The position numbers and the translations under genes were made by a program. A stretch of DNA of 16,354 nucleotides from an uncultured Clostridia bacterium (lineage in GTDB: Bacteria > Bacillota_A > Clostridia > TANB77 > CAG-508): contig CANQQF010000028.1 in NCBI GenBank assembly GCA_947625985.1, positions 1 to 16,354 of the forward strand, in the 5' to 3' direction. Shown one piece after another: positions 7,433-16,354 of the stretch (the first letter of the stretch is position 1; each line of letters begins with the position of its first letter). The notes under the pieces are model-generated. The model had not been told where the DNA came from. It saw only the letters and a list, made by a program, of their open reading frames with translations, and did no database searches.

Positions 7433-7460
7433 GTAGTGTATAAATCTAAAATAAAAAAAA

Positions 7461-7483
7461 GATGAATATTTAAAATATTCATC
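7461..7483 (-). terminator. Intrinsic terminator of the GNAT gene
   Basis: 10-bp stem (7461-7470 with 7474-7483), 3-nt loop, followed on the minus strand by eight T. Lies 10 nt past the stop at 7493. Confidence 0.87.
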
Positions 7484-7492
7484 TACTTTTTT

Positions 7493-7954
7493 CTATGCTA
7501 AACATTTTTTAAAATATGCTTCTTCTTCATATTGTGATTCCACATCATCTGGTTTGAAAGAATTCTTTGTATAAAATCCTATAGCTCTTTCCATTCTTTT
7601 ATAAGTTCCAAGAATAATATATTTATAACCATTATCTACAGCAAATTTTTCTAGAATGTTTAAAAGTTCTTGTGCAATTCCAAAGCTTCTATATTCTTTT
7701 TTTACATACATTCTTTTTAATTCTAATGTTTCATCATCTACTATTTTTCCAGCAATTGTACCAATTACATTATTATTTTCATCTAGTGCAATCCAGAAAT
7801 TGCCTCCATTTTTTAGATATTCTAAATAAACATCTTCATTTCTTATTTTTTCAATTCCATAATCTAGGTTAAATTCGCCTGCATAAATATATTCAATAAA
7901 TTTTTTTACATCTACATCAAATTCTTCATTGTATTCAATTATTCTTCTTTCCAT
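7493..7954 (-). CDS. GNAT-family N-acetyltransferase
   Basis: A 153-residue GNAT protein, which would transfer an acetyl group from acetyl-CoA to an amine. Motif A, the acetyl-CoA pyrophosphate loop, is LKRMYVKKEYRSFGIAQELL (79-98), with R/G/A at the usual loop positions; FWIALDENNNVIGTIAG (53-69) forms the preceding strands, and IGFYTKNSFK (125-134) is the C-terminal motif B. The family covers N-terminal, small-molecule and antibiotic acetylation; the substrate cannot be told. The RBS AAAGGGG is six bases before the ATG. That RBS/start region is complementary to a repeat just upstream (7985-7997). No separate promoter is obvious between the upstream structured RNA and this gene, so it may be expressed by readthrough from the promoter at 8377-8405. 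Confidence 0.85.
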   Translation of the reverse strand: MERRIIEYNEEFDVDVKKFIEYIYAGEFNLDYGIEKIRNEDVYLEYLKNGGNFWIALDENNNVIGTIAGKIVDDETLELKRMYVKKEYRSFGIAQELLNILEKFAVDNGYKYIILGTYKRMERAIGFYTKNSFKPDDVESQYEEEAYFKKCLA

Positions 7955-8076
7955 TGTTTTCCCCTTTCTAATTTTTTATTTTCAGGCAAAACAATGGAAT
8001 ATATGTCTTAAATTTAATAACGGATAGCATGGCTATCATTATTTAAGATAAAAAACATATATTTTATTGTTTTGCC
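7951..8076 (-). promoter_or_regulatory. Candidate attenuator: two mutually exclusive hairpins before the GNAT start
   Basis: Three related 13-nt segments occur. Segment A (8064-8076) and B (7985-7997) pair over 11 bp, and the helix continues for 9 more bp after two mismatches and then in two further helices, making a 92-nt hairpin (7985-8076). Segment B also pairs with C (7951-7963): ten perfect bp (CCATTGTTTT with AAAACAATGG), one mismatch, two more. C contains the end of the GNAT ribosome binding site and its ATG. A-B leaves the start open; B-C closes it. Neither hairpin has a U-tract, so neither is a terminator. Segment A lies inside the small ORF upstream. The pairings are seen; the regulatory role is inferred. 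Confidence 0.5.
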
Positions 8077-8130
8077 AAAGTTGATCGAGTTTGAATCAAT
8101 ATTTTTCGTACTCGCTCCTGCGCCATCCAT
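8014..8130 (-). CDS. Small ORF, 38 codons, possible leader peptide
   Basis: An ATG at 8130 preceded by AGAGGTGA (close to the full anti-Shine-Dalgarno complement) nine bases upstream opens a 38-codon frame ending in TAA at 8014. The product begins MDGAGASTKNIDSNSINF and has a hydrophobic patch YMFFIL near residues 24-29; I do not recognise it. The first codons (GGC, GCA, GGA, GCG, AGT, ACG) are GC-rich and unlike codon use in neighbouring genes, so selection may act on RNA rather than peptide. The second half is encoded by one arm and the loop of the 92-nt hairpin. It sits 25 nt after an intrinsic terminator and 59 nt before the GNAT gene. It could be a leader peptide, a real small protein, or a chance frame. 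Confidence 0.4.
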   Translation of the reverse strand: MDGAGASTKNIDSNSINFGKTIKYMFFILNNDSHAIRY

Positions 8131-8155
8131 TATAAATTTCACCTCTTTCTTTATC

Positions 8156-8183
8156 AAAAAAAAATCGCGGCTAAACGCCGTGA
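8156..8183 (-). terminator. Intrinsic terminator of the structured RNA
   Basis: On the minus strand a short GC-rich stem (CGGC-GTTTA-GCCG at 8168-8180, with an extra C-G and T-A pair past one mismatch) is followed by nine T (8156-8164). Stem is short, so readthrough into the small ORF is plausible. Confidence 0.7.
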
Positions 8184-8370
8184 AATTACAAATTTAAAAA
8201 TCAACCAACGTTTGAGCTTTAGCATTATAGGGCTTGTTTCATTGTATTAATCAATACCTTGCTTTCGATATTGACTGCTATCCTGCTGGTGATGTCTCCA
8301 TCACTTCGCGGCAACAACCCGGATCCCTATAGTAGCCTTACCTACCAATTAAATTATTTTTAAACACATT
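8156..8370 (-). ncRNA. Unidentified structured RNA, about 215 nt
   Basis: Defined by a near-consensus promoter and a terminator, with no ORF. The core (8221-8345) is visibly GC-richer than its surroundings. Stems seen on the minus strand: GGCTACTAT (8337-8329) with ATAGCAGTC (8281-8273), 8 of 9; TTGTTG (8317-8312) with CAGCAG (8288-8283); a perfect GTGATG-GAGA-CATCAC hairpin (8304-8289) with a GNRA-type loop; TCAATA (8274-8269) with TATTGA (8256-8251); and TATAGGG (8331-8325) with CCCTATA (8232-8226), which competes with the first. It is not tmRNA, SRP RNA, RNase P, T-box or any riboswitch class whose core I can recall. Length, fold complexity and host fit the raiA-motif RNA class of Firmicutes, but I cannot confirm that from sequence alone. 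Confidence 0.65.
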
Positions 8371-8376
8371 TTAATT

Positions 8377-8405
8377 ATATTAACAGAATTTCTTGCATAT
8401 GTCAA
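8377..8405 (-). promoter_or_regulatory. Strong sigma-A promoter of the structured RNA
   Basis: Perfect TTGACA (8400-8405), 17-nt spacer, TAATAT (8377-8382) with a TGT extended -10 on the minus strand. This is the best promoter in the window and faces a region with no long ORF. Transcription would begin near 8370. Confidence 0.87.
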
Positions 8406-8443: not shown

Positions 8444-9094
8444 TTATTTATTCTCATTAATAATGCCTTCTCCTATTATTTCCTCATTATTCTTCAATAA
8501 TACTTCCACATCGTTTTCAATAACAATTGGAACTTCAAGAGACACACGAATTTTCTGTTCTTCTTCTGAAACTATAGTTGCAGAACAATTTATATCACTT
8601 TTTATATATATTTTATTAATTTCTTTAACTAATTCAGATAAAGATATATCAGTAGATGTTATTTGTATATTAAAATTATATATTGGTTTTGTTGTTCCAA
8701 GCAATGTAACTGATTGACCTACCTGTATCATTTCAGTTGAAATATCTGTATCCAATACTATACATATATACTCGCCTTCTTTGGCAGATGTAACTTCTTC
8801 ATCATCCTTTTGCAATTTTTCCACCTTACAATCGACGCCTTTTCCTCCTAGTCCTTCAATTGAAATTTCATCATCTAAATTTATTTTTCCTTTTTCAACA
8901 TCTCCAAAAATTTTTATCTGATTTTCATCTTCTTCTATATTATCAATATATAATAAGAAAAAATTTTCCTCTGCAACCTCTGTGATGTTTTGAGCAATAC
9001 TCTGATTATACTTCTTCGTAAAATTTTTAGATACAATTACTAAAATTATTATTACTAATATTAATACTATTAAATAAAAAAACTTATTTTTCAT
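8444..9094 (-). CDS. Membrane-anchored protein with EF-Tu domain-2-like barrel
   Basis: A 216-residue protein with one N-terminal membrane helix (about 5-22) preceded by lysines, so the rest should face outward. Residues about 58-134 match the layout of domain 2 of translation GTPases: a GDVEKGKINLDDEISIEG strand-turn-strand, a central strand CKVEKLQK, then AKEGEYICIVLDTDISTEMIQVGQSVTLLGT, which parallels the AxxGDNxGxxLRGI...RGxVL pattern of EF-Tu. No GTPase (G) domain is present. The C-terminal part (140-216) is a separate alpha/beta or beta-rich segment I do not recognise. RBS is AGGGGT. It lies 45 nt downstream of the large LPXTG protein gene, likely co-transcribed by partial readthrough. 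Function is unknown; the barrel may bind ligand or protein. Confidence 0.65.
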   Translation of the reverse strand: MKNKFFYLIVLILVIIILVIVSKNFTKKYNQSIAQNITEVAEENFFLLYIDNIEEDENQIKIFGDVEKGKINLDDEISIEGLGGKGVDCKVEKLQKDDEEVTSAKEGEYICIVLDTDISTEMIQVGQSVTLLGTTKPIYNFNIQITSTDISLSELVKEINKIYIKSDINCSATIVSEEEQKIRVSLEVPIVIENDVEVLLKNNEEIIGEGIINENK

Positions 9095-9113: not shown

Positions 9114-9141
9114 AAAGAGATGCAATGATCTGCATCTCTTT
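9114..9141 (-). terminator. Hairpin overlapping the stop of the LPXTG gene
   Basis: An 11-bp stem (9114-9124 with 9131-9141), 6-nt loop. The stop codon itself is in the stem. The T-tract is short (TTTTATATAA), so termination may be partial, letting some transcripts continue into the next gene 20 nt on. Confidence 0.6.
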
Positions 9142-12112
9142 ATTTTACATCTCTATATGAAACAAATTTTATAAGTGCAAATACTGATACTGGCATTATT
9201 ATAACAAGAATTATAATAACTGCTTTATTTATACCAGTCTTAGGTAATTTTTGTTTTGAGACACTTTTATCTTGATTTTTTATTTTAGTTAAACTTCCGT
9301 TAGAAGAACCACTTCCGCTTCCACTTCCATTACCGCTACCATTGCCACCTTGTCCATTTCCATCGCCTTGAGGAAGATTTCCAGTTCCAGGATTTACAGG
9401 TTCTTTAGTAATTGTAGCTTTTACTGTTTTAGTTACTTCTTCACTATATCTTCCAGCATTATCTAGTACTCTAGCCGTTATTTTAAGTTCTCCTTGGAAA
9501 ATTTTTATTACTGTGTATAAATTATCCTCTGCAACTGTCTGCCATTGACCATCATCAATTTTAAACTGATAAATAACATCATCATCTTCATTATCACTAT
9601 TTAGTTTAAAGCATACGTATCTTTCAATAAATTCATCATCTGAAATAATTGTTGGTTCTTTTATTGGACTAAATACTGTACATTCTACTGTTTCATTATC
9701 TACATTATCAGTAGCTCTTGCCCACAAATATATTGTATCTTTACTTTCTCCATCGTAAGTAACAGCTGATGAATATGTTTTCCATTCATCTTCTGATGGT
9801 TGTTCATCTTCCGTTGTCCATGCATATTGCTTAGTATTTATTCCAGATCCCATGTCAGTATAATTAATTACTGTTTTTCCATTTGCTCTATCAAAAGTTA
9901 TAACAGGACCAGAAACGTCTATTTTTGCGTCAATACTTATAGATGCAATATTTTCAGCCTCATCCTTAAAGTAGAAATAATATGTTCCGGTTTCTTCTAC
10001 GGAAACATTTTCAGTAACTTCTTCATTAGTTGTTGGTACAGGTATCCATCCAGGAGAAGAAGCAGTTATATCATTCTGATTACTAACTTGATATGCAGAT
10101 ACACCACTTAAATTGTCCTTTGCTTTTCCTATAATATTTTTTCCAAATTTACTCCATTCAGCATTATCTAATGAAACAGAAGTAATATTTGGTTTTACTT
10201 TATCAATATTTATTGGATGCTCAACCTCGCTCGTTACAACATTAAATCCATCTGTTGCAGAAAGCAATAATGTTGTAGTTCCCTCTTCAGTTAATGTTGA
10301 AGGTTGACTAGTAGATTCAATTTTTTCAGCAGAGTTTTCCTTTGAATAATAAGAAGTGGTTACACCTTCAGTTTTTTCTTCTATAGTCGCATAAATATCT
10401 TGGTTAGACCATGAATTTTCTGTATAATTTTCACCTTCATCATTATTAAATTTTAGAATAAGATCTCCTATTAGTAGCTCTTCTGTTTTTACTTTAAGTT
10501 CTTCAGATTCTGATGTGTTACCTACCATATCTGTTGCTTGAGTTTTTATTACATATTCAGTGTTAGGTGTAAGTCCATCGAAAACATTACCCTCTTGCCA
10601 ATCGCTCCATTGATCACCTTTTTTTATTTGATATCTAGTTTTTGTACTATCTATACCACTATGTTCATCTATTTGACCTAAAGTTACAGTAATACTATGA
10701 GTTGTTGTTTTCACAGTAGGTTGGGTATCAGTCGGAGGTATTCTATCAATTTTTGTATTTTTAGTAACTATGTCAGAGTAATCTTCTGGCTTTGTACCAA
10801 CGATTCTCGCATCAACTTGAATTAATCCATTTTCTTCTATAGGAATATCTTTGTCCTTCTCACAATCTTTCCAATCTCCATTATTGATTCGATATTGATA
10901 TTTTTCCACATATTCTTGAACATTTACATCATCTGTTATTTTAAAAGTTACATCATTTTTTGTCCATCCTTCTTCAGAAACAGAAAGCTCGGGATTTTTT
11001 AAATATGTAACTGTAAACTTTCTTTCTACTGTATTACTCTCACAACCCGTAGCATCTGTTGCCCATACTTTTAATGTATGAACCTTATCCGTTGATAAAT
11101 TTAGGTTTGTTAAATCTAATGTAAAGGTCTCTGTTCCACCAGTTGTATTCATTGGTTCTAAAGTATAGTCCTCGTCATCAACAATATAATGTATTGTAAT
11201 TTTATCTCTTAGATCTTTATCTGTAACTGTTCCATCAAATTTAACATCTGTATAATAAAACTTTTTGTTATCTTCCAAAGTTAAACCAGTATTTGGAACA
11301 TTAATTTCTCCTACTTCCATTAAAACAGAATATTTTTTAGTTTCTCCTGCTTTTATTTCTTTATTTGTCCAAGAATAACAAAATGAACTATCCTGATTTT
11401 CAATTTTCTTTTTATCTGAATTATCAGTAAACATATTCTTTAAATAATCTCTTGACCAACCTCCAATCCATAAAGTATCAATATTTGTAGTGTTGTCTAC
11501 ATTTCTTCCATAAAATACAAATTGAACTGGTTTATCTGTATGTCCATCCTTTGTCCAAAGCCTTACACCAGAGCCATCATCTAATCTTTCTATTGTTGCT
11601 TTATCATCACCATCAATTTGAACATCTGCACAAGTAGCAAGTGAAATAGTAGCATCATCATGTGTTGTATTTTTTAAAGTATATGTTATTTGTAATTGCT
11701 CTCCATCATTAATAAAATCGGTATCAACATGTAATTGTATTCCGTTTATATCTTGTATACCATCACCAGTTACTTGCTTATATTCCATAGCAATCGCATT
11801 GTTTTCCCAAGTAGTACCATCTTCACTATTTTTTAATATTTCATTCATATTTCCATTTTTTCCATTGACATTTAAAAATGTATGATATCCATAATTGCTA
11901 TAGGTACTACTAATTAGTTGTTTTCGCCCAGTACTTTCATCAGTAACTATATATCCTTTTATGTCAAAACCCTTTAAATCACCACTAAGTTCCAATCCTC
12001 CACTAGTGCTAGTTACATTCATATTTCCATTATCTCTAGGTGTTATAGCAAATAAACATATAGGTACAGTTATTATTAATAAAAATACAAGAAAAACAAT
12101 TATCTTTTTCAT
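9140..12112 (-). CDS. LPXTG-anchored multi-domain surface protein
   Basis: A 990-residue secreted protein. Residues 1-22 form a signal peptide (KK, then a hydrophobic run). Residues about 35-270 form an N-terminal beta-rich domain I do not recognise. A series of Ig-like/FN3-like modules follows at about 283-370, 375-457, 460-545 (a clear FN3 with LTPNTEYVIKTQATD), 550-636, 640-733, 734-818 and 820-903, several with the recurring WxxWxxx and ATDxxGN pattern. A Gly/Ser-rich spacer (908-940) spans the wall. The C-terminus has the sortase signal LPKTG (956-960), a membrane helix and a basic tail, so a class-A/B-like sortase should link it to peptidoglycan; no sortase gene is in the window. RBS AGAGGG precedes the ATG. 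Likely an adhesin or glycan-binding protein (inference). Confidence 0.88.
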   Translation of the reverse strand: MKKIIVFLVFLLIITVPICLFAITPRDNGNMNVTSTSGGLELSGDLKGFDIKGYIVTDESTGRKQLISSTYSNYGYHTFLNVNGKNGNMNEILKNSEDGTTWENNAIAMEYKQVTGDGIQDINGIQLHVDTDFINDGEQLQITYTLKNTTHDDATISLATCADVQIDGDDKATIERLDDGSGVRLWTKDGHTDKPVQFVFYGRNVDNTTNIDTLWIGGWSRDYLKNMFTDNSDKKKIENQDSSFCYSWTNKEIKAGETKKYSVLMEVGEINVPNTGLTLEDNKKFYYTDVKFDGTVTDKDLRDKITIHYIVDDEDYTLEPMNTTGGTETFTLDLTNLNLSTDKVHTLKVWATDATGCESNTVERKFTVTYLKNPELSVSEEGWTKNDVTFKITDDVNVQEYVEKYQYRINNGDWKDCEKDKDIPIEENGLIQVDARIVGTKPEDYSDIVTKNTKIDRIPPTDTQPTVKTTTHSITVTLGQIDEHSGIDSTKTRYQIKKGDQWSDWQEGNVFDGLTPNTEYVIKTQATDMVGNTSESEELKVKTEELLIGDLILKFNNDEGENYTENSWSNQDIYATIEEKTEGVTTSYYSKENSAEKIESTSQPSTLTEEGTTTLLLSATDGFNVVTSEVEHPINIDKVKPNITSVSLDNAEWSKFGKNIIGKAKDNLSGVSAYQVSNQNDITASSPGWIPVPTTNEEVTENVSVEETGTYYFYFKDEAENIASISIDAKIDVSGPVITFDRANGKTVINYTDMGSGINTKQYAWTTEDEQPSEDEWKTYSSAVTYDGESKDTIYLWARATDNVDNETVECTVFSPIKEPTIISDDEFIERYVCFKLNSDNEDDDVIYQFKIDDGQWQTVAEDNLYTVIKIFQGELKITARVLDNAGRYSEEVTKTVKATITKEPVNPGTGNLPQGDGNGQGGNGSGNGSGSGSGSSNGSLTKIKNQDKSVSKQKLPKTGINKAVIIILVIIMPVSVFALIKFVSYRDVK

Positions 12113-14811: not shown

Positions 14812-15279
14812 CTACTTATTTTTTATCATTATATAATGCGTTTGATTTTCCTCTATTTTTTAAACCCCATTCTTTCATATAATTTTATTGCTTTTTCATT
14901 TATTTTAAATGCTTGTAATTTAATGCTTTTTCCTTTGTTCTCAAATATAATCTCATTTAATACTGCTGTTCCAATTCCTTTATTTTGATATTCTGGTTTT
15001 ATACAAATATTGCCTATTTCAAAGATATTATTTTCTATTTCTTCTCCATTGTAAAATCCGTACCAAATCATCTTTTAAATATATAAGTTCTATATTTTTA
15101 AAATTTTCTTTCATAAATTTATCAAATAGCTTTTTTTGGATTTCTTCATTCCACTCTCCATAAATATTTTCTACGTATTTTTGATAAACTTCTTTTTTCA
15201 AATCATAAATAAACTTAATTTGTTCTTGGTTACCATTTTTATATGGTTCTAGTTCTAAATTTGGTACTTCCCAACCCAA
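14812..15279 (-). pseudogene. GNAT-family acetyltransferase gene broken by two frameshifts
   Basis: Two overlapping frames together make one GNAT protein. The upstream frame (to about 15061) gives LELEPYKNGNQEQIKFIYDL through IELIYLKDDLV; one extra base at 15060 (GTACGGA instead of GTAGGA) moves the rest into another frame, which continues GFYNGEEIENN, motif A ICIKPEYQNKGIGTAVL, and AIKLYERMGFKK. A stop at 14853 follows a run of six A; adding one A restores the usual GNAT tail IEENQTHYIMIKNK, ending at 14812. The repaired protein would have about 155 residues. The start is unclear: TTG at 15279 has no good RBS. Either a true pseudogene or assembly indels, since one site is a homopolymer; decay of the next gene favours a pseudogene. 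Confidence 0.8.
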
Positions 15280-15375: not shown

Positions 15376-16354
15376 TTAACCCCACAAAATTTTATTGTAA
15401 TTTTTTATATCCTCTCCCATAATTTCAAGATAATCTTTTTCAGCTTGGGTTAAATGAGTCTTCATATATTTATCATATTCTTGATGTGCTTTTTTTAACG
15501 CTTTTTCATGTGACACACTTCCCTTTCCTGCCAAAATATCCTTATGTGTCATGGTTAAAAATCCATCTAATTCTTTTGTCCAATCTTTCATTGTCATAGG
15601 ATGCATATTTAAAGCATTAATTTCAGCAACATCTAAATAAGCTGATACCATTCTATTTAATAAATCTAGTTCATTTTCTGTTAAATAATTTTTAGCAACT
15701 TCTGTTTCTGCTCTTGTAGGCATGTTCCCTTTAAAATTAGTTAAACCAATATTTTCTTTTTTGCTATCTACTCTATTAAATATTACTTCTGCAGCTGTGT
15801 TTCTGTGGACTGCATAATGCATCTTATTTTGAACTGTTTTGAAAAATTCTTTTGTTTTTTCATCTTTTGCATCATAATCGATACTTGTTGCATAGATATC
15901 TAAAATTTTTCTCCAAAATACTTTTTCAGATGAACGAATATCTCTAATTTTTTCTAATACTTCTTCGAAATATACTCCTCCACCATTATTTTTAAATCTA
16001 TCAACATTCAAATTATATCCTTTTATTAAATATTCTCTTATTAATTTATTTGCCCATATTCTAAATTGAGTACCACGAATTGATTTTACACGATATCCAA
16101 CTGATATAATTAAATCTAAATTATAGAATTTTGTTTTGTAATTTTTTCCATCTGAGGCAGTTAGTAAGGATTCCTTACTAACTGATTTTTCTTCTAACTC
16201 TCTTTCTTCAAAAATATTTTTTATATGCATCGTTATATTATTTCTTGTTGTATTAAAAAGTTTCGCCATTGCATTTTGCGTTAACCAAACATTTTCATTT
16301 TCAAGTCTTACTTCTATCTTAACTTGTCCGTCATCAGAAGTATAAATTAATATT
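15376..16354 (-). CDS. rhuM: RhuM-family protein (5' end cut by the window)
   Basis: The frame is open from the right window edge to TAA at 15376, about 325 codons. Translation from the edge begins ILIYTSDDGQVKIEVRLEN, then VWLTQNAMAKLF, matching the start of RhuM-family proteins within a few residues of their initiator, so the ATG lies just beyond the window; an internal ATG at 16269 is not the real start. Conserved blocks: HIKNIFEERELEE (HTH-like N-terminal region), YNLDLIISVGYRVKSIRGTQFRIWA, YFEEVLEKIRDIRSSEKVFWRKILDIYATSIDYD and AKNYLTENELDLLNRMVSAYLDVAE. The family was named in a Salmonella pathogenicity island and often rides in type I restriction-modification loci; its activity is unknown. 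It appears intact, and is followed by decayed genes. Confidence 0.92.
   Translation of the reverse strand, partial: ILIYTSDDGQVKIEVRLENENVWLTQNAMAKLFNTTRNNITMHIKNIFEERELEEKSVSKESLLTASDGKNYKTKFYNLDLIISVGYRVKSIRGTQFRIWANKLIREYLIKGYNLNVDRFKNNGGGVYFEEVLEKIRDIRSSEKVFWRKILDIYATSIDYDAKDEKTKEFFKTVQNKMHYAVHRNTAAEVIFNRVDSKKENIGLTNFKGNMPTRAETEVAKNYLTENELDLLNRMVSAYLDVAEINALNMHPMTMKDWTKELDGFLTMTHKDILAGKGSVSHEKALKKAHQEYDKYMKTHLTQAEKDYLEIMGEDIKNYNKILWG

Follow-up and report, generated by a model that had tools for sequence, protein, structure and literature searches.

Here we report an M-box riboswitch leader in front of a GNAT acetyltransferase gene on contig CANQQF010000028.1 of an uncultured Clostridia bacterium, of which a stretch of 16,354 nucleotides (hereafter the window) was analysed. 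The segment 8405-7453 is best read as a 5′ leader and one-gene transcription unit for the GNAT enzyme, complete on the minus strand (to which all window coordinates below refer) with a promoter, an M-box, a terminator, a Shine-Dalgarno (SD) sequence with an upstream open reading frame (uORF), two adjacent hairpins, the GNAT gene and a terminator-like hairpin. A first-pass annotation of the window had listed a promoter, a foldable RNA, an intrinsic terminator, a small open reading frame (ORF) and two competing hairpins in front of the gene, and each of these was located where it had been placed.

The promoter (8377-8405) reads TTGACA-17-TAATAT with an extended −10 TG and matches the consensus at 10 of 12 positions; TTGACA or TTGATA, a spacing of 17 and TAATAT recur in three close relatives of the locus (L001, L002 and L003, described below). 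It had been called the best promoter of the window, which by consensus it is not. Because three other sites score 11/12 and promoter-like sites are no commoner in the window than in shuffles (108 versus 115.5 in a consensus scan), it is the conservation at all four loci that argues for it. A second match at 8157-8129 (11/12), which overlaps the SD and start of the uORF and is not conserved in L001-L003, is probably chance.

The foldable RNA proves to be an M-box (ykoK leader) Mg2+ riboswitch aptamer at 8356-8197, with 100.1 bits for Rfam RF00380 against a gathering score of 44 and 104.3-110.5 bits for its counterparts in L001-L003. Behind it lies the intrinsic terminator (8183-8156), which is missing from the list of the consensus scan and consists of six pairs with one mismatch followed by nine T; a hairpin with GCGTTT in or beside its loop stands at this site in all four loci. 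The 3′ strand of the aptamer (8205-8217) is predicted to be able to form an antiterminator by pairing with the terminator's first half (5′), and a pairing of like kind is predicted in L001-L003. In the window the antiterminator fold has −11.6 kcal/mol against −6.8 for the terminator hairpin alone, and over the four loci the freed aptamer 3′ strand with the terminator 5′ half gives −11.6 to −19.7 kcal/mol against −6.8 to −11.7 for the terminators alone, the stretches compared being of different length. Folding predicts mutually exclusive terminator and antiterminator structures that use the aptamer 3′ strand in 4/4 loci, and the predicted pair is the usual M-box arrangement. The window's aptamer would be expected to respond to Mg2+ from its family membership, and because of that membership the signal is most likely Mg2+ rather than an antibiotic. 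A Mg2+ transporter gene, usual but not defining downstream of an M-box, is not what follows; the next gene is the GNAT gene, and then comes the terminator-like hairpin.

Between terminator and gene lies the uORF of 38 codons (8130-8014; MDGAGASTKNIDSNSINFGKTIKYMFFILNNDSHAIRY), behind the conserved SD AGAGGTGA at 8139-8146; this is the small ORF with a ribosome binding site of the first-pass annotation, and it has a counterpart in 3/3 close relatives. Alignment gaps within the uORF among the window and L001-L003 come in multiples of three and the ratio of non-synonymous to synonymous substitution (dN/dS) is 0.28-0.53 over the six pairs, so the uORF is probably coding and under purifying selection. 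It has no match in Pfam, NCBIfam or PDB, and the idea that it is a fragment of a transporter was rejected on that account. The GNAT gene itself (7493-7954) encodes 153 amino acids, with 62.8 bits for Pfam PF00583 and an AlphaFold2 model of mean predicted local distance difference test score 90. It is closed by the terminator-like hairpin at 7453-7484, and a hairpin followed by a T-rich stretch also stands behind the GNAT gene in L001-L003. None of the aminoglycoside acetyltransferase models reaches its curated cut-off for this protein (best 30.9 bits versus 265), and the best-scoring named families, RimI and PaiA, are below cut-off. The nearest solved structure is a Staphylococcus aureus GNAT of unstated function (3d8p), and a search of viral contigs with the GNAT profile gave a single relative, at 32%.

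Conservation, folding and the genes behind M-boxes

One scan of genome contigs with the GNAT protein returned 12 relatives, of which three are close (L001 at 78%, L002 at 59% and L003 at 61% identity), all from uncultured Clostridia whose genomes belong to one genus of 14 genomes. Further close GNAT proteins are present in other assemblies (P0003-P0008, 58-75% identity). The order of promoter, M-box, terminator hairpin, uORF, hairpins and GNAT gene, which the first-pass annotation had proposed to follow in related genomes, is identical in all three. L001 by our reading shares the window's neighbours, with a prephenate dehydratase gene before the unit and DUF362 after it; the neighbouring genes of L002 and L003 differ from those of the window.

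In 4/4 loci, three hairpins can be drawn in the RNA that runs from the uORF SD to the start of the GNAT gene. H1 pairs the uORF start (AUAAUGGAUGGC, 8122-8133) with codons 35-38 of the same uORF (8017-8028), with 12/12 pairs in all four loci, so that the uORF sequesters its own start by means of its 3′ end, an element absent from the first-pass annotation. Since the last uORF codons pair with the start, H1 would account for the A-[I/V]-[R/H]-Y at or close to the C-terminus of the peptides. The switch arm (UCCAUUGUUUUGCC, 7985-7998) can pair either with the GNAT SD and start (7950-7964) as H2 or with a GG[C/U]AAAA segment in codons 19-22 of the uORF (GGCAAAACAAU, 8066-8076) as H3; in H3 a C-G to U-A change in L001 stays paired and one pair is lost in L003. 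L003 combines this weakened arm with a broken GNAT frame, as if the unit in this one locus were decaying or misassembled. The long inverted repeat 8076-7985 was considered as a hairpin of a mobile element resembling a miniature inverted-repeat transposable element, and this was rejected, its arms being conserved coding uORF and conserved spacer in the relatives.

The competing hairpins at the GNAT start hold up in folding calculations. The RNA from the uORF SD to the GNAT start is stabler than all 300 dinucleotide shuffles at each of the four loci (z −5.2, −4.3, −5.1 and −4.1), and the GNAT start is predicted to be closed by H2 in every one. The uORF start is closed with p 0.98-1.00, and is equally tight in 3, 0, 9 and 7 of 300 synonymous randomisations of the uORF. 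H1 and H2 together have 96.2% of their alignment cells paired, against 41-59% when the arms are slid by one to three columns. Covarying stems, for which the first-pass annotation had suggested a search, are found in part: three of five measures taken on H1 and H2 exceed shuffles, 500 shufflings of the 3′ letters reaching the covariation score in 2, the paired percentage in 2 and the number of cells changed on both sides in 10, and the other two do not. With a modelled ribosome masking codons 4-6 of the uORF, the GNAT start opens from 0.17 to 0.81-0.82 in L001 and from 0.25 to 0.56-0.65 in L002 as H3 takes over; the modelled switch works in these two loci only.

An M-box in front of a GNAT gene is rare, and is seen only in the window and in the genus of L001-L003. 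In a survey of 292 genomes of the family, six have an M-box: G001-G003 carry the one before GNAT, G002 and G003 have another before mgtE, and G193, G221 and G174 have one each before mgtE. Locus L019 has mgtE behind its M-box. GNAT relatives (E ≤ 1e-15) occur in 27/292 family genomes, with 34-48% identity outside G001-G003, and none of the 24 genomes with these more distant relatives is among the family's M-box genomes. GNAT homologues lacking the upstream elements and M-boxes not followed by GNAT, which the first-pass annotation held would count against its system, are found in part, given that 24 of the 27 genomes have a GNAT relative without an M-box and that most M-boxes do not precede a GNAT gene. 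Immediately before one 43% GNAT relative, in L026 (about 1380-1500), stands a different uORF, again with an SD (MNRIFILAYIRKN...); the genome of this relative is not among the family's M-box genomes.

The wider class survey covered 391 genomes and found 100 M-box matches in 91 of them, from which 97 loci were taken (G757 and G762, at contig ends, and G001, counted already, were left out), 96 with useful downstream DNA. A BLAST match to MgtE was found in 52/96, and no GNAT match among the first three ORFs of at least 90 codons starting within 1000 nucleotides of the M-box in the 96 loci; L093 has a GNAT-like ORF 1.5 kb off, behind other genes. The remaining loci by our reading mostly resemble corA, P-type ATPase or MgtC genes, as Pfam found for representatives (CorA in L066 and L101, E1-E2 ATPase in L080 and L102, MgtC in L076). 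Unusual targets are a metallophosphoesterase in L095, whose M-box scores 70.6 bits, and an ABC permease in L115.

Acidic uORFs in clostridial M-box leaders

A covariance model of the uORF-GNAT region (R1), run on both strands of 37 sources, returned its four members (three of them twice, from duplicate loci) and two further matches of 10.5-10.7 bits. Among the 97 M-box loci it gave one clear match, L085 (31.3 bits, E 0.0011; the next E was 0.85), which has a uORF between its M-box and mgtE, and because of this match M-box uORFs were surveyed more widely. Eighty-two leaders were kept from the 97 loci, after removal of L060 (67 bases behind the M-box), L070 (wrong offset, although it does carry a uORF beginning MDSGPSNYC), L093 and L142 (no main ORF) and 11 near-duplicates; the downstream flank of L059 and L062 is short, so that the leader as counted includes some or all of the M-box in these two, and neither gave a uORF. 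The test looked for an SD-preceded ATG uORF of 15-80 codons, then for a start with M[DE], then for a proline within the next eight residues, and was repeated on 100 shuffle sets.

Under this test 49 of the 82 leaders have an SD-ATG uORF, 43 one with an M[DE] start and 32 one with M[DE] and an early proline, against means of 4.8, 0.4 and 0.1 (maxima 12, 2 and 1) in the shuffles. Of the remaining small SD-ATG ORFs of these loci, 9/116 begin with M[DE] and 2/116 have the proline, and leaders of thiamine pyrophosphate (TPP) riboswitches (30 loci, one dropped) give 1/29 and 0/29, with a median length of 214 nucleotides against 214.5 for the M-box leaders. The first uORF of a leader has D or E at position 2 in 40/49. 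Starts such as MDSGPLPN, MDPGPLPSL, MDCDPDSNY, MDADPGEK, MDSDPLPGK and MDIGPYGGR are seen in many leaders. The 41 distinct M[DE] peptides have S at position 3 in 20, G in 21 or D in 12 at position 4 and P at position 5 in 25; the consensus of those with an early proline is M-D-S-[G/D]-P, position 2 being D or E by selection. With codon 2 omitted, codons 3-8 are 11.4% D and 16.3% P against 1.7% and 2.4% in later codons, and E is not enriched (2.4% versus 3.6% later). Further into the peptide, L085, L087 and L088 form a sub-group with DIKP(P). In L085 we read codons GACATAAAAC as pairing with a downstream GTTTTATGTC, which can alternatively pair with the SD region of the transporter gene.

The effect of a ribosome on these leaders was modelled for 40 of them (37 other M-box leaders with the window, L001 and L002; L003 was omitted, as were leaders with a spacer below 10 nucleotides or a uORF start more than 330 nucleotides from the gene). 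The gene start is predicted to be unpaired at 0.31 in the free RNA, 0.41 with a ribosome at codons 3-5 and 0.34 with a later ribosome, against 0.42, 0.41 and 0.46 in twelve sets with shuffled spacers. An early ribosome opens the gene start by more than 0.15 over a late one in 11/40 leaders (shuffles: mean 1.2, maximum 4), and the uORF SD is more closed than in shuffles (0.27 versus 0.39). The predicted opening by an early ribosome is a modest effect across the leaders.

The uORFs of the GNAT leaders relate to this class to differing degrees. The motif score of codons 2-7 lies above that of 98.5% of random peptides for the window, 99.99% for L001 and 99.96% for L002 and L003, and much of it is due to Asp2; for codons 3-7, 0.4% of random peptides equal L001 and 1.4% equal L002 and L003, all three of which have Asp at codons 2 and 5. 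To judge by its peptide, the window's uORF is the weakest case of the class, to which it is linked by its relatives, by lying behind an M-box and by Asp2, and not by residues 3-7.

A possible two-step Mg2+ switch

We think it somewhat probable that the leader is a two-step Mg2+ switch, in which an aptamer and a ribosome-destabilising leader peptide act together and which here drives a GNAT gene. In the first step, known for the family, enough Mg2+ would let the aptamer hold its 3′ strand, whereupon the terminator would form and end transcription short of the uORF; when Mg2+ is scarce the strand would pair with the terminator 5′ half and RNA polymerase would read on. In the read-through RNA, H1 would close the start of the uORF and H2 that of the GNAT gene. 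If a ribosome were held on the acidic codons that begin the uORF, or dropped off there, H1 would stay open, H3 could form and the GNAT start would be freed; a ribosome translating smoothly would cover the H3 arm, letting H2 form and keeping GNAT off. Each of the two steps would then signal a shortage of Mg2+, because acidic and proline codons near the start make ribosomes unstable in the leaders of enterobacterial Mg2+ transporter genes; translation of the window's uORF and destabilisation of its ribosome are presumed. A similar leader design, with stronger M-D-x-[G/D]-P peptides, may precede many clostridial Mg2+ transporter genes, the window being a branch that drives an acetyltransferase. 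The evidence is evenly poised on the wider proposal that about half of clostridial M-boxes are two-sensor Mg2+ switches, with an aptamer gating transcription and an acidic, proline-containing leader peptide that senses Mg2+ via ribosome stability and gates translation, that their motif is independent of enterobacterial MgtL and MgtQ, and that the module moved before GNAT in one genus as the first M-box-controlled acetyltransferase.

Several observations weigh against a two-step switch. The window is not a clear case in the model, because masking of early uORF codons does not open its GNAT start (0.20 to 0.23-0.24, and 0.25 to 0.27 in a second calculation), and in L003 the start closes further (0.45 to 0.22-0.37). 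H3 has only six or seven pairs outside the window and one compensatory change, and is otherwise patchy. The covariation test of H1 and H2 drew on four sequences only, the GNAT leaders available, and its two measures not above shuffles (pairs changed on both sides, 169/500; pair types, 354/500) fall on the same side. The terminator of L001 has a poor T run (TTTATTATATT) and the GNAT frame of L003 is broken near its start (4958 onward). Asp2 is the sole early acidic residue of the window's uORF, which has no proline, and its codons 3-7 are not above chance, 28% of random peptides scoring as well. Across the class, 39/82 leaders lack an M[DE] uORF by the test applied, and among the 40 folded leaders the early and late ribosome states differ by at most 0.15 in 26, with a reversed effect (below −0.15) in 3 (shuffles 6.75).

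Some of these points fit an account in which H1 and H2 only lower translation and the unit is a weak, Mg2+-repressed gene without switching. We regard this as quite unlikely: the absence of opening in the window, the reverse in L003, the thin support for H3 and a uORF that departs from the acidic motif beyond Asp2 all favour it, but it leaves unaccounted for the early opening in 11/40 leaders against 1.2 in shuffles and the one compensatory change in H3. Purifying selection on the uORF would equally suit a plain M-box transcriptional switch whose regulated product is a translated small protein, with GNAT merely the next gene; in Mycobacterium tuberculosis an M-box controls a conserved uORF, Rv1805A, whose peptide has been proposed to play a role (PMC12810186). 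Such an account is rather unlikely here, since the C-terminus of the peptide is largely dictated by pairing with its own start, the residues that recur among 41 M[DE] uORFs from the other M-box leaders fall at codons 2-8, and H2 is predicted to close the GNAT start at each of the four loci. Very improbable, finally, is that the leader is an erm/cat-type translation attenuator through which an antibiotic induces a drug-modifying GNAT, the induction that the first-pass annotation had entertained. A leader ORF, a sequestered gene start and alternative pairing are what such a system would have, but the upstream riboswitch belongs to a Mg2+ family, such acidic uORFs precede Mg2+ transporter genes, and a drug-resistance target gene is not in evidence, the aminoglycoside acetyltransferase models being far below cut-off. 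What survives of that annotation's reading is the riboswitch leader with translation-dependent control, to which a known Mg2+ riboswitch and the order and hairpins kept in three close relatives point; the antibiotic idea finds no support.

Should the two-step Mg2+ switch be borne out, the textbook clostridial Mg2+ riboswitch would have a second, overlooked sensor in the ribosome, read via a leader peptide with an MgtL-like start, and a peptide signal for Mg2+ shortage would have evolved convergently in unrelated bacteria. The Mg2+ regulon would then include an acetyltransferase, and a non-transport target (polyamine, ribosomal or other protein) may be acetylated at Mg2+ shortage.

Elsewhere in the window, two genes separate the M-box from the prephenate dehydratase gene. 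One (9140-12112) encodes a 990-amino-acid surface-type protein ending in LPKTG and a membrane tail; the other (8444-9094) encodes an anchored protein of 216 amino acids that weakly resembles elongation factor Tu domain 2, at 22.9 bits and below cut-off. L001 lacks both, and an apparent 3′ end of the 216-amino-acid gene remains before its promoter. Two overlapping ORFs at 14853-15279 resemble one GNAT split across two frames, and 15376-16269 encodes a RhuM-family protein (PF13310, 343.5 bits).

Comparison with known systems

Among the matches listed in a mostly open-access literature search, we noticed none that deals with a GNAT gene behind an M-box or with acidic uORFs in M-box leaders of Firmicutes. 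The locus resembles known members of RF00380 in its aptamer above cut-off and in the predicted aptamer-strand antiterminator in 4/4 loci, and differs from them in its GNAT target and in the uORF between terminator and gene. One account describes M-boxes as 'almost always' preceding corA, mgtE or mgtA, with Nramp genes an exception (PMC4072509). The Bacillus subtilis M-box has been used as a reporter, in a paper from whose text the words 'leader' and 'uORF' are absent (PMC11567004). As at Rv1805A, an M-box here is followed by a conserved uORF before an annotated gene; there, however, a translational platform and Rho are involved where the window has an intrinsic terminator, and the part of that report consulted says nothing of an acidic start.

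In layout the leader resembles Salmonella mgtQ, which like MgtL is a tested precedent. It lies in the intergenic region between mgtC and mgtB, where Asp2 and Glu5 codons destabilise the ribosome and, with a ribosome on region 1, stems 1:2 and 3:4 yield to 2:3, freeing the mgtB ribosome binding site (PMC8092293). A short ORF with its start in a stem, a gene ribosome binding site in a stem and an alternative pairing are likewise predicted here, and the acidic codons correspond in part (Asp2 and Asp5 in L001-L003, Asp2 only in the window). In contrast, mgtQ has 8 codons and lies inside an operon, with no riboswitch described alongside in the text consulted, and H3 and H1 here use different segments of the uORF.

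Translation of corL lowers corA (PMC11552253), and MgtL has the acidic and proline-containing N-terminus EPDP (Glu2, Asp4), low Mg2+ turning mgtA on (PMC11282234). Both mgtA and corA use Rho-dependent termination, unlike the leader reported here, and the window's uORF is without prolines. The uORFs of clostridial M-boxes have a consensus, M-[DE]-x-[GD]-P, that agrees with the positions of EPDP.

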